Shown: one piece after another, positions 36,765 through 50,439 of the stretch
Position numbering within the stretch: the stretch's first letter is position 1
How the letters are laid out: every line of letters begins with the position of its first letter
Position numbers and translations under genes: made by a program
From: an uncultured Porphyromonadaceae bacterium
GTDB taxonomy: Bacteria > Bacteroidota > Bacteroidia > Bacteroidales > Muribaculaceae
Assembly (NCBI GenBank): GCA_946414395.1
Contig: CAMKOE010000001.1
Coordinates: 124,001-188,000 of the forward strand
Direction: 5' to 3'
Length of the DNA: 64,000 nucleotides
Notes under the pieces: model-generated
Told to the model about the DNA's origin: nothing
The model's input: the letters and a program-made list of their open reading frames with translations, nothing else
The model's database searches: none

Positions 36765-37012
36765 TTTCTAGAAAAGTAAAGAAAAATTTCATTTTGACCT
36801 CTATTCTCGAGTTCGACATAACTGTTGACTCATCAAAATTTTCTCAATGCGAATTTCACGGATCACATAACTTTTCATCCGGATAGTTGAATCATAATTG
36901 GCAGTTGCCTCGCAGGGCTCGGGACAACATCTATATTATTTCACTCTACTGCCACTGGTGACAAATTCACGCGGAAAACATGCTTTTCACCGTCATGAAA
37001 CTGACATATTTG

Positions 37013-37027
37013 CTGACAATGTGTCAG
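37013..37027. promoter_or_regulatory. Inverted repeat in the dnaK control region
   Basis: CTGACA (37013-37018), ATG and TGTCAG (37022-37027) form a perfect inverted repeat just upstream of the -24 element. A third half site CTGACA lies at 37001-37006. Confidence 0.55.
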
Positions 37028-37038
37028 TGTGCTGATTT

Positions 37039-37054
37039 TGGCACACGGTTTGCA
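37039..37054 (+). promoter_or_regulatory. Sigma-54 (RpoN) type -24/-12 promoter of dnaK
   Basis: TGGCAC (37039-37044), five bases and TTGCA (37050-37054) agree fully with the sigma-54 core TGGCAC-N5-TTGCA. The GG and GC dinucleotides are separated by exactly 10 nt. Transcription would start near 37066, about 83 nt before the dnaK ATG. No exact TAnnTTTG box is visible in this region; CATATTTG (37005-37012) has one mismatch. Confidence 0.65.
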
Positions 37055-37065
37055 TGAATAAGGGC

Positions 37066-37088
37066 GTGACATGTGCTAAAAATGTCAC
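37066..37088 (+). promoter_or_regulatory. Inverted repeat at the expected dnaK transcript start
   Basis: GTGACAT (37066-37072) and ATGTCAC (37082-37088) are perfect complements with a 9-nt spacer. They could act as an operator or as a 5'-end hairpin in the mRNA. Confidence 0.5.
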
Positions 37089-37148: not shown

Positions 37149-39080
37149 ATGGGAAAGATTATTGGTATCGATTTAGGAACGACTAACTCGTGTGTTTCGG
37201 TTCTGGAAGGCTCCAAGCCTGTTGTGATTCCCAACAGCGAAGGCCGCAACACGACGCCTTCGGTAGTTGCCTTTAAGGATGGTGGCGAGCGCATCGTGGG
37301 AGATCCCGCCAAGCGTCAGGCCATCATGAACCCCACGGGTACCGTATTTTCTATCAAGCGTTTCATGGGCGAGACTTTTGATCACGTTACCAAGGATGTG
37401 GAACGCATGCCCTATAAGGTAGTGAACAACGGCAGCAACCAGCCTCGCGTGGAGATTGCCGGCCGCCAGTACACCCCGCAAGAGATTTCGGCAATGATTC
37501 TCCAGAAGATGAAGAAAACTGCCGAGGATTACCTGGGCACCACCGTTGACGAGGCCGTCATCACCGTGCCTGCATACTTCAACGACGCCCAGCGCAAGGC
37601 CACCAAGGAGGCCGGTGAGATTGCCGGATTGAAGGTGCAGCGCATCGTCAACGAGCCCACCGCTGCCGCTTTGGCCTATGGTCTGGACAAGGACAACAGC
37701 GACAAGAGGATTGCCGTGTTTGACTTGGGTGGCGGTACATTTGATATTTCTATCCTAGAACTTGGTGACGGCGTGTTTGAGGTGAAGGCCACCAATGGTG
37801 ACACCCACCTGGGCGGTGACGACTTCGACCAGCGCATCATCACCTGGCTCGCTGATGAGTTCCAGCAGGAGAACGGCATGGACCTGCGCAAGGATCCCAT
37901 GGCCCTGCAGCGCCTGAAAGAGGCTGCCGAGAAGGCCAAAATCGAACTTTCAAGTTCGACCAGCACTGAGATCAACCTGCCCTATATCACCCAACTCGAC
38001 GGCATGCCCAAGCACTTGGTAAAGACCCTGTCGCGCGCCAAGTTTGAGCAACTGTGCGACGACCTGATCCAGAGCACCATCGAGCCCTGCCGCAAGGCTC
38101 TCCAGGATGCCGGCTTGAGCACCAGCGACATCAATGAGGTGATCCTCGTGGGCGGTTCTACCCGTATCCCCGCTGTTCAGCAGGTCGTTGAGAAATTCTT
38201 CGGCAAGGCTCCGTCCAAGGGTGTTAACCCCGATGAGGTTGTTGCTGTGGGTGCCGCCATCCAGGGCGGTGTGCTCACCGGTGATGTCAAGGACGTGCTG
38301 CTGCTCGATGTAGTGCCCCTGAGCGTGGGTATTGAGACCCTCGGTGGCGTGATGACCAAACTGATTGAGGCCAACACCACAATTCCCGCCCGCCGCAGCC
38401 AGGTCTTCTCGACCGCTGCCGACAATCAGCCCGAGGTTGAGATCCACGTGCTGCAGGGAGAGCGTCCCATGGCTAAGGACTGCAAGACCCTGGGTCGTTT
38501 CCACCTCGATGGCATCGCTCCCGCACCCCGTGGCATTCCTCAGATTGAGGTGACCTTTGAGGTCGATGCCAACGGTATCATGAACGTGAGCGCCAAGGAC
38601 AAGGCTACCGGCAAGGAGCAGAGCATCCGCATTGAGGCTTCGAGCGGCCTGAGCGACGCCGAAATCCAGCGCATGAAGGACGAGGCTACCGCCAACGCCG
38701 CCGCCGATGCCGCCGAGAAGGAGCGCATCGACAAGATCAACGGCGCTGATGCCCTCATCTTCCAGACCGAGAAGGTGCTCAAGGACAGCGGCGACAAGTT
38801 GCCCGCCGACATCAAGGGCCAGATTGAGGGTGCGTTGAACAAACTGAAAGATGCCCACAAGAGCCAAGACCTCGCTGCCATCGATACCGCTACCGCCGAA
38901 CTGAACTCCCTGTTCGAGAAGATGTATCAGCAGGCCGGTGGTGCACAAGGCCAGCCCGGTGCAGGTTTTGATCCCAACAACATGGGTGGCGCTGGCTTCC
39001 AGGGTGGTCCTCAGCAGGGTGGCAATCCCGGTCAAGGTGGCGACAACGTCGAGGACACCACCTATGAGGAAGTGAAGTAA
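37149..39080 (+). CDS. dnaK: Molecular chaperone DnaK (Hsp70)
   Basis: 643 residues, standard length. The ATPase domain starts [18 protein letters not shown] and includes [15 protein letters not shown] and the [11 protein letters not shown] motif; the substrate-binding domain starts near [18 protein letters not shown]. The C-terminal lid has Gln/Gly-rich linker and ends [10 protein letters not shown], the usual EEVK-like tail. It refolds and protects proteins with DnaJ and GrpE, which are not adjacent. Upstream are a sigma-54-type promoter and several TGACA/TGTCA repeats instead of CIRCE or a sigma-32 promoter; no CIRCE inverted repeat (TTAGCACTC-type) was seen. It is a single-gene transcript ended by a strong terminator. 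Confidence 0.97.
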
Positions 39081-49400: not shown

Positions 49401-50043
49401 GTCACAATTGGAACGCTTGAACCGCGAGCGCGACCTGGTGGGCATGTACCTGTCGGCCCATCCGCTGGATCCCTATTATATGGAGGTGACCTATGGTTGT
49501 GACACCCCGCTAGCCGAGGTGAAAAACCGTGACAACCAAGTGGACAAGGAACTGACCATGGGCGGCCTGGTCGTCGATTTCCAAACCCGCATGGGCAAGA
49601 AGGGCGGCCAGTTTGGCATTCTCAAGATCGAGGATTACAGCGGCTCGTTCGAGTTTATGTTGTTCGGCAACAAGTTTGTTGACTACCAGAAGTTTGGCGT
49701 TCCCGGTTTTGCTATCGTCGTGCGTGGGGCCTACGAGAAAGGCTTCAAAGACAACGTCCGTTTCAATGTCAGGTCAATAGACCTGCTGGACAACCTTAAG
49801 GGTAAGATGGTCAGGAACCTCGTCATCACTTTGAGGGACGATGACCTGGGTAACGTGGAATTCTTGAAACAGTACCTGGGTAGCAAGGGTGACAACCAGT
49901 GCGATCTGTACTTCCGCATGAAGGATCAGGTGAGCGGCAACTATGTCATGCTGCGCTCCAAGAAACTCATTGCAGTGGATAAACGACTGATGGAATCGCT
50001 GCGCGAGGCACATATCCAGTTCAGGGTCAATGCCCGCGTGTGA
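46489..50043 (+). CDS. dnaE: DNA polymerase III subunit alpha
   Basis: 1184 residues, normal for DnaE1. The PHP domain starts VHLHVHSQYSILDGQ (about 4-18) and continues GMAITDHGNMFG. The catalytic palm has FLNPDRISLPDIDTDFDDDGR with the PDxDxDF carboxylates, and RSTGVHACGVIIG follows. Finger segment QVMLLSRQLAGFTRGQSDTLRKAMGKK is intact, and an OB fold (about 1010-1090) and C-terminal region complete the protein. It is the replicative polymerase, which needs the beta clamp and an epsilon-type exonuclease supplied elsewhere. It is followed by trxA after 81 nt, probably in one transcript. Confidence 0.97.
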   Translation: MIPFVHLHVHSQYSILDGQAPVKALVDKAIANGMRGMAITDHGNMFGIKEFHDYVNKLNKKRSGESGDEKFKPIFGCEVYVANKSRHDRIDKRDNGNHLILLAKNLKGYKNLIKIVSHAWTEGMYYHPRTDHSELEKYHEGIICCSACLGGEVPQLIMHGQMAQARETIQWFKSVFGDDYYLELQRHKATVARANHETYEKQCLVNDALIQFARELDIKLICTNDSHFVNEEDADAHERLICLSTGKKLTDENVMLYSKQEWFKTQEEMNEVFADVPEALQNTSEILDKVEIYSIDHGPILPDFPLPDGFKDEDDYLRYLVYEGAKERWPELTEEQRERLDFELETIKNMGFPGYFLIVQDYIKMAPKLGCTVGPGRGSAAGSAVAYCLGITKIDPLKYDLLFERFLNPDRISLPDIDTDFDDDGRAAVLNYVTEKYGAEKVAHIVTYGTMAAKSAIKDVARVEDLPLPESNRLAKFIPSSPNEMPEDKNGKKYKITVKNCLECFPDFRAELDNQDPRVGETIRFAEKLEGSVRSTGVHACGVIIGRDDITDWVPVSTATDSDGEKIIVTQYEGGVIESTGLIKMDFLGLKNLSIINEALANIKLNHGIDIDIEKIPIDDPKTYELYCKGQTSGTFQFESAGMQKYLIELHPTCFEDLIAMNALYRPGPMDYIPQFINRKQGREAIVYDIPCMEKYLKETYGITVYQEQVMLLSRQLAGFTRGQSDTLRKAMGKKQIEKMNELETLFYEGGEKNGHDKKVLNKIWEDWKKFASYAFNKSHATCYSWVAYQTAYLKANYPSEYMAAVLSSNLNDVDKLSKYMDECRAMGIEVLGPNINESYKNFSATKDGRIRFGLAGIKGVGVSCVESIVEERKKNGAYKDIFDFVQRINQGACNRKALESMALAGAFDDFKEIKREDFFETNPRGEAFSETLMRFGQRYQASLQEMQNSLFGALGGVEVATPTIPNAEPWSQLERLNRERDLVGMYLSAHPLDPYYMEVTYGCDTPLAEVKNRDNQVDKELTMGGLVVDFQTRMGKKGGQFGILKIEDYSGSFEFMLFGNKFVDYQKFGVPGFAIVVRGAYEKGFKDNVRFNVRSIDLLDNLKGKMVRNLVITLRDDDLGNVEFLKQYLGSKGDNQCDLYFRMKDQVSGNYVMLRSKKLIAVDKRLMESLREAHIQFRVNARV

Positions 50044-50124
50044 CAAAATGCCACTTGGCATCCTATTTGCAATAGAACAATCAAGAAATTATTCATATCA
50101 ATCATTTTAAAACAGAATAGAAAA

Positions 50125-50439
50125 ATGGCAAAAGAAATTAACGACGCTAATTACAAGGAGTTATTGGAATCGGGCAAGCCCGTTGTGATCGACTTTTGGG
50201 CTCCCTGGTGTGGTCCCTGCCGCAGCATTGCCCCCATTGTAGAGGAATTGGCAACCGCCTATGAGGACCGTGTCATCATCGGCAAGTACAATGTTGATGA
50301 GGATACAGACCTGGGTGTGGAATACGGCATCCGCAACATCCCCACCATGCTCTTCTTCAAGGACGGCAAGATGGTGGACAAGCATGTGGGTACTATCACC
50401 CGTGATGCTCTCACCGCTAAGATTGAAGCGCTGCTGTAA
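50125..50439 (+). CDS. trxA: Thioredoxin
   Basis: 104 residues, a single thioredoxin domain. The redox motif is WAPWCGPCRSIAP (Cys 29 and Cys 32), with the cis-Pro loop RNIPTMLFFKDG near residue 73. It reduces disulfides in the cytoplasm; there is no signal peptide. It is 81 nt after dnaE and probably shares its transcript, a common linkage among Bacteroidales. A double-layer hairpin follows. Thioredoxin reductase is not in the window. The canonical CGPC argues against a specialised secreted isoform. Confidence 0.95.
   Translation: MAKEINDANYKELLESGKPVVIDFWAPWCGPCRSIAPIVEELATAYEDRVIIGKYNVDEDTDLGVEYGIRNIPTMLFFKDGKMVDKHVGTITRDALTAKIEALL

Follow-up and report, generated by a model that had tools for sequence, protein, structure and literature searches.

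A probable sigma-54 promoter of dnaK with a helically phased candidate activator site in the Bacteroidia

Judged from its sequence and from comparison with relatives, the dnaK heat-shock gene carried by the window (the whole 64,000-nucleotide stretch of DNA analyzed here), from an uncultured gut-type bacterium, is very probably transcribed from a sigma-54 promoter, with an activator site adjoining it in helical phase. That the promoter is real we hold with high confidence, and it is part of a class-wide chaperone regulon already known in outline: sigma-54 chaperone promoters have been reported for the phylum, and the phased dyad and the assignment of an enhancer-binding protein (EBP) are the parts that we have not found in the open-licence papers searched. 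In other phyla, the same chaperone genes are controlled by HrcA/CIRCE and by sigma-32. HrcA was detected in none of the 59 family genomes (the same search was positive in 7 of 14 control genomes), and sigma-32 is not known from the Bacteroidota. The window also holds no CIRCE element with up to three mismatches, so neither component of the HrcA/CIRCE system, the hrcA gene or the CIRCE site, was found here. The activator gene, candidate site and spacing rule described below make heat-shock control in the phylum testable.

Results

An exact and conserved sigma-54 site upstream of dnaK

The sequence TGGCACACGGTTTGCA, at positions 37039–37054 of the + strand, is an exact match to the sigma-54 consensus TGGCAC-N5-TTGCA, with ACGGT as the spacer, GG of the −24 element at 37040–37041, GC of the −12 element at 37052–37053 and 10 nt between them. 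Its last base is separated by 94 nt from the ATG of dnaK (37149–39080, + strand), the gene that it serves, which encodes a 643-residue Hsp70 chaperone recognized from its open reading frame and relatives. The order 5′ of the gene is ...TGACAATGTGTCA-GTGTGCTGATTT-TGGCACACGGTTTGCA-TGAATAAGG..., and the dnaK transcript is predicted to start near 37065. An inverted repeat, GTGACAT-N9-ATGTCAC, lies at 37066–37088 within the predicted 5′ untranslated region; it resembles the half-sites of the upstream dyad with a wider gap.

The first-pass annotation had singled out this motif, correctly as to form and position, and had put its chance frequency at 0.03 in the window. That figure is valid only for equal base use and is about five-fold too low, since dinucleotide shuffling gives 0.15 expected exact matches per window and 14 of 100 shuffles contain at least one. 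The exact consensus occurs once in the window, at the dnaK site. Exact TGGCAC-N5-TTGCW sites number 21 in the whole genome, and many of these are probably due to chance because several sit inside genes; with up to one mismatch allowed there are 188 sites, compared with 129 for the reversed pattern. A bare match to the motif therefore proves little, and the significance of the dnaK site comes from its conservation and from the phased dyad rather than from the match alone.

Conservation is extensive. TGGCAY-N5-TTG precedes dnaK in 14 of 15 genus members (the present genome included), 13/13 family, 2/2 order and 21/27 class genomes, compared with 0.12, 0.10, 0.04 and 0.16 expected from shuffling the same regions, and it is absent from the opposite strand of the dnaK upstream regions in all four sets; two family rows were left out of this count, one having only 33 nt of upstream sequence (L056) and the other a gene start that was not found (L065). 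With 60 more regions included, the shorter pattern TGGCA-N7-TG was present in 14/15 genus, 33/33 family, 2/2 order and 38/47 class genomes, and in 5 of 20 upstream regions from outside the class. This sample, made up of the best 30 matches of each search and the 60 regions picked for spread over genera and families, covers 15 of the 16 listed genus genomes, 33 others of the family, both of the order, 47 of 70 of the class and 20 others. The motif is thus kept in close and distant relatives, and with a promoter in 38 of 47 class genomes, control of dnaK by RpoN does not look unusual for Bacteroidota, contrary to the earlier expectation.

Because TGGCA-N7-TG and the dyad pattern TGNCA-N3-TGNCA were chosen after inspection of the first upstream regions, the 60 later regions and a separate set of named loci are the fairer tests. 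The latter began as 80 dnaK loci, from which five duplicates of earlier sequences were removed, and the resulting 75 still include near relatives of the first set; 63 of them carry the promoter, among them records from Dysgonomonas, Tannerella, Barnesiella, Alloprevotella and Mucilaginibacter. The nearest DnaK proteins, 98–99% identical, come from records of uncultured Prevotellaceae, Muribaculaceae or Bacteroidales.

The upstream regions in which the promoter was missed (1/15 in the genus, 9/47 in the class, 15/20 outside the class and 12/75 among the named loci) include several near variants. The one genus member concerned has CGGCACGGCCGTTGCT (CGGCAC-N5-TTGCT) at dnaK. Among the 12 named loci, CGGCATAATGATTG replaces TGGCA in three and the −12 element reads TTCG or TTAG in several; three upstream regions (L367, L369 and L385) show no similar site by eye. 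Across the dnaK promoters, the base 3′ of the −12 G is C, A or T.

A dyad in helical register with the promoter

A dyad, TGACA-ATG-TGTCA, at 37014–37026 (+ strand) begins 25 bp 5′ of the start of the dnaK promoter, and we regard it, from its conservation and helical phasing across genomes, as the candidate EBP site. An extra TGACA half-site 5′ of it, at 37002–37006 (+ strand), could belong to a second site. The exact pattern TGNCA-N3-TGNCA occurs at dnaK in 15/15 genus (0.16 expected) and 17/27 class genomes (0.22 expected), in 1/13 of the family (0.14 expected) and in 0/2 of the order; promoter plus exact dyad is likewise rare at dnaK in the family outside the genus (4/33). When one mismatch is allowed within the 140 bp before the dnaK promoter, the dyad is found in 14/14 genus, 27/33 family, 2/2 order and 38/38 class upstream regions, for which shuffling of the same stretches predicts 0.5, 1.4, 0.1 and 1.3.

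Promoter and exact dyad occur together in 73 of 177 upstream regions of dnaK, groES and grpE, and in 114 with one mismatch in the dyad. None of 147 control upstream regions has the pair, whether the dyad is exact or has up to one mismatch; these controls are the open reading frames of at least 120 residues in 18 EBP neighborhoods, nine of them groEL. The dyad alone, with up to one mismatch, is present in 21 of the 147, and the window contains six exact dyads compared with 2.6 expected, so the dyad by itself is unspecific and dyad plus promoter is specific.

The distances between dyad and promoter vary widely, mostly in steps of the helical pitch. For 66 of 78 pairs, the distance falls within 2 bp of a ladder of 25 + 10.6k bp, so that the candidate activator site tends to keep the same helical phase relative to the promoter, as is characteristic of sigma-54 control; the 12 pairs off the ladder have distances of 17 (three), 33, 49, 65 (three), 93 (two), 104 and 133 bp. 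The best period over all 78 pairs is 10.6 bp (R = 0.74). For the 39 distinct gene/distance values R is 0.67, a level reached by 0 of 20,000 sets jittered by up to 5 bp, p-values here being indicative only because the rows are related by descent. Phasing is weaker in the named-loci set (R = 0.61; 0.53 for 15 distinct values), in which 20 of 27 distances lie within 2 bp of the ladder, with about 10 to 13 expected if they were evenly spread; the seven exceptions are 17 (three cases, each with an overlapping second dyad), 65, 75, 85 and 86 bp. Spacing in helical turns fits an activator that faces or touches the polymerase and is hard to explain by a repressor.

The same pair at other chaperone genes

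In the genome under study, this type of promoter also precedes groES-groEL, clpB and grpE, in the last case with a weak −24 element. The groES-groEL site is an exact TGGCACACTCGTTGCA (contig C1, position 2134) starting 79 nt before the groES ATG, with a one-mismatch dyad 36 bp from the promoter. The clpB gene, named by eye (contig C9), has TGGCATGAGTGTTGA, with GA at −12, and an exact dyad at 25 bp. At grpE (contig C23) the site is a weaker TTGGACTGGTTTTTGCA, its weak −24 being TTGGACTGG, and an exact dyad lies at 134 bp, about 3 bp out of phase. Across the family, where groES and grpE are each found in all 59 genomes and 30 loci of each were examined, the promoter is present at 26/30 groES and 20/30 grpE loci, the latter count being probably too low because an upstream Met served as the assumed start of several grpE genes; in class-level EBP neighborhoods, 7 of 8 groES genes have it. 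At many grpE loci, for example L130, L142, L149 and, in the present genome, L246, the dyad seems to fall within the 3′ end of the preceding gene, which is ispE-like by eye; a site for the activator would then form part of a coding region.

The window may contain a second regulon member. A dyad, TGACAAAATGCCA, at 50041–50053 (+ strand) begins 15 bp 5′ of a one-mismatch sigma-54-like site, TGGCATCCTATTTGCA, at 50056–50071 (+ strand), whose start is 69 bp from the ATG of a 104-residue open reading frame (50125–50439, + strand) that is thioredoxin-like by eye from its WCGPC motif. The dyad is about one helical turn closer to the site than at dnaK. A thioredoxin family gene also appears in the sigma-54 list for Flavobacterium psychrophilum in the main text of PMC9723704.

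Six further exact sites were kept out of the regulon. They start 61–102 nt before open reading frames that by eye are Clp-like, OmpA-like, YbjQ-like, glycine-zipper, LemA-like and aspartate-semialdehyde-dehydrogenase-like (L010, at contig C1 position 245690, L011, L017, L021, L026 and L027), and no dyad, with one mismatch allowed, lies 13–140 bp from any of them. Such sites may be chance matches, or they may be activated in a second way.

RpoN and a single detected candidate activator

The genome has one copy of rpoN (contig C3), which encodes both the Sigma54_CBD and the Sigma54_DBD domain, as the promoter assignment of the first-pass annotation presupposed. The gene is present in 294 of 296 phylum genomes, a retention that defeated the use of natural rpoN loss as a test. 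That annotation had also pointed out that an enhancer-binding activator would be required, and the genome supplies one candidate gene: a single EBP was detected (contig C62, a contig other than that of dnaK; PF00158 E-value 1.5e-65), and the four other PF00158 matches, which appear to be AAA+ proteins of other kinds, are weak (E-values no better than 3e-9, with three over the family cut-off). Because the assembly is 81% complete, another EBP may be missing from it. Exactly one EBP at an E-value of at most 1e-40 is found in 31 of 59 family genomes, the present one included, and two or more in 28. Orthologues of the protein occur in 193 of 198 family genomes, and 275 of 296 phylum genomes have a match at 1e-75 or better, the best match outside the class not necessarily being an orthologue; 20 of the 21 genomes without a match are listed, all of them outside the class.

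The candidate has 419 residues, with a AAA+ domain at 18–184, a lid at 190–270 and a Fis-type helix-turn-helix (HTH) at 373–414. No sensor or other Pfam domain was found at its N-terminus, the AAA+ domain beginning at residue 18; with the first Met taken as the start, 58 of the 59 orthologues have 39–57 residues ahead of the Walker motif, and L086 has 140. Its loop reads GSFTGA, a form of the GAFTGA loop of sigma-54 activators, and the loop is GAFTGA or GSFTGA in 56 of the 59 orthologues, GAFTDA in one and unmatched in two. In the recognition helix, I402 and E404–I411 are invariant in the 35 orthologues (of 59) that were aligned. The lptE gene lies directly downstream, followed by open reading frames that are TPR-like and SecG-like by eye. 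Of the class loci outside the order, 9 of 11 have groEL within the roughly 7 kb examined downstream; it is in none of the 5 loci from the order, family and genus and in neither of the 2 from outside the class. Neither a dyad nor a sigma-54 promoter was found in the 250 nt upstream of any of the 59 EBP genes, and autoregulation was rejected on that count.

PspF, the EBP of the psp operon, combines a AAA+ domain and a Fis-type HTH, has no N-terminal receiver or sensor domain, acts on stress-response targets and is controlled by a partner. The present protein is like it in architecture and in its proposed stress-response targets, whereas PspF differs in its particular targets, phylum and site, and the present protein has about 100 residues between the AAA+ lid and the HTH. 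PspF structures are among its structure matches, but NtrC-family and NifA chains score higher, so the likeness is one of architecture and not of closest kinship.

Discussion

We propose that the dnaK site is a working sigma-54 promoter, opened by a Fis-type EBP bound at the dyad and belonging to a chaperone regulon of the class, a reading to which we give a probability of roughly 85%. RNA polymerase carrying RpoN would occupy GG-N10-GC as a closed complex, and the EBP, bound to 37014–37026 on a fixed face of the helix and adjoining the polymerase, would open the promoter by ATP hydrolysis coupled through its GAFTGA-type loop. The likeliest activator is the only EBP detected, the sensorless protein of 419 residues whose gene precedes lptE on another contig. 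This pairing of promoter and dyad would serve groES-groEL, grpE, clpB and possibly a thioredoxin gene, and its sharing among these genes suggests a heat-shock type regulon of the class that takes the place of HrcA/CIRCE or sigma-32. If true, an ATP-driven activator would give heat-shock control a design distinct from those based on a sigma factor or a repressor.

Having no sensor domain, the EBP may itself be controlled by a partner, as PspF is, and heat or misfolded protein would be the likely signal. One speculation is that the restraining partner is free chaperone; either a PspF-like inhibitory protein or titration of chaperones could provide the sensing. More broadly, we lean slightly toward the idea that this sensorless, lptE-linked EBP, often encoded near groES-groEL, is the master regulator of chaperones in the Bacteroidia, reading the phased dyad at dnaK, groES, grpE and clpB and held back by a partner that may be free chaperones, in a sigma-54 switch that replaces sigma-32 and HrcA.

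Two alternatives deserve discussion, the first of which is compatible with our proposal. dnaK could be transcribed mainly from a promoter of the primary sigma factor, the sigma-54 site being minor or condition-specific. Some basal expression of chaperones is needed, the −7 box of Bacteroidota (TAnnTTTG type) is often degenerate, and a one-mismatch copy, TGATTTTG, overlaps the sigma-54 site. Moreover, the main text of a start-site map for Bacteroides thetaiotaomicron (PMC7366714) does not mention sigma-54 or RpoN, nor does that of PMC12596196; we treat this silence as neutral or slightly unfavorable to sigma-54 control. Against a primary-sigma promoter as the principal one, no exact TAnnTTTG lies on the + strand between 36901 and 37148, in agreement with the first-pass annotation, and the main text of PMC9723704 places the dnaK, groES, grpE, htpG, lon and clpB starts of F. 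psychrophilum under sigma-54-type promoters. We judge this arrangement unlikely, with perhaps one part in five of our belief.

The second alternative, which we consider less probable again, accepts the promoter and assigns the dyad to another factor, either a repressor or a different activator, or has the promoter activated by an EBP missing from the incomplete assembly. The family genomes with two or more EBPs fit this possibility, as does the dyad-free upstream region of the EBP gene, and in some promoters, that of dnaK here included, the dyad is close to −45, where a repressor could act. What tells against it is the single strong EBP in more than half of the family genomes, the proximity of the EBP gene to groEL in most class loci outside the order, and the range of dyad distances, from 15 to about 134 bp and mostly in steps of a helical turn, which fits contact with the polymerase better than steric repression. 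That the dnaK motif is a chance match, as the shuffled windows and intragenic sites might suggest, is negligible in likelihood given that its position, form and dyad are conserved across the class.

The proposal of a dyad-bound EBP at a sigma-54 promoter extends earlier work on the phylum. In F. psychrophilum, promoters of the same sigma factor and −24/−12 class (designated SM4) were assigned from mapped starts, and the main text of PMC9723704 lists dnaK, groES-groEL, grpE-dnaJ, htpG, lon, skp and clpB under the sigma-54-type motif; four of these targets (dnaK, groES-groEL, grpE and clpB) are shared with the present genome. Three EBPs were predicted there, and co-expression clusters were suggested to match distinct activators, so that the chaperone activator was left among the three, whereas here one EBP and a dyad are proposed. 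The locus tags given in that text agree with the order EBP-lptE-groEL (EBP 0733, LptE 0732, GroES 0729 and GroEL 0728). A phylum-wide survey (PMC12316311) shares the chaperone targets on statistical evidence: for Bacteroidota it reports sigma-54 promoters to be enriched upstream of the COGs for DnaK, GroEL, GroES, GrpE, DnaJ and IbpA. In neither paper does the main text contain the terms palindrome, dyad, inverted repeat or upstream activator, and we found no heat response in the main texts of the literature cited here. In a limited search of the main texts of open-licence PMC papers, no assignment of this EBP or this dyad was found. In its main text, the survey supports sigma-54 dependence of GrpE and GroES in B. 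thetaiotaomicron with a paper on nitrogen recycling in Blattabacterium (its reference 80), a citation that looks misplaced.

Some of the dnaK upstream regions from outside the class that lack TGGCA-N7-TG have a variant −24/−12 form, a close variant CCGGCACTGTTCTTGA in L186, L199 and L204 and ACGGCACCGTTCTTGA in L193, with TGAC or TGTC repeats nearby. The occurrence of such repeats beside a variant promoter suggests that this layout may predate the class.
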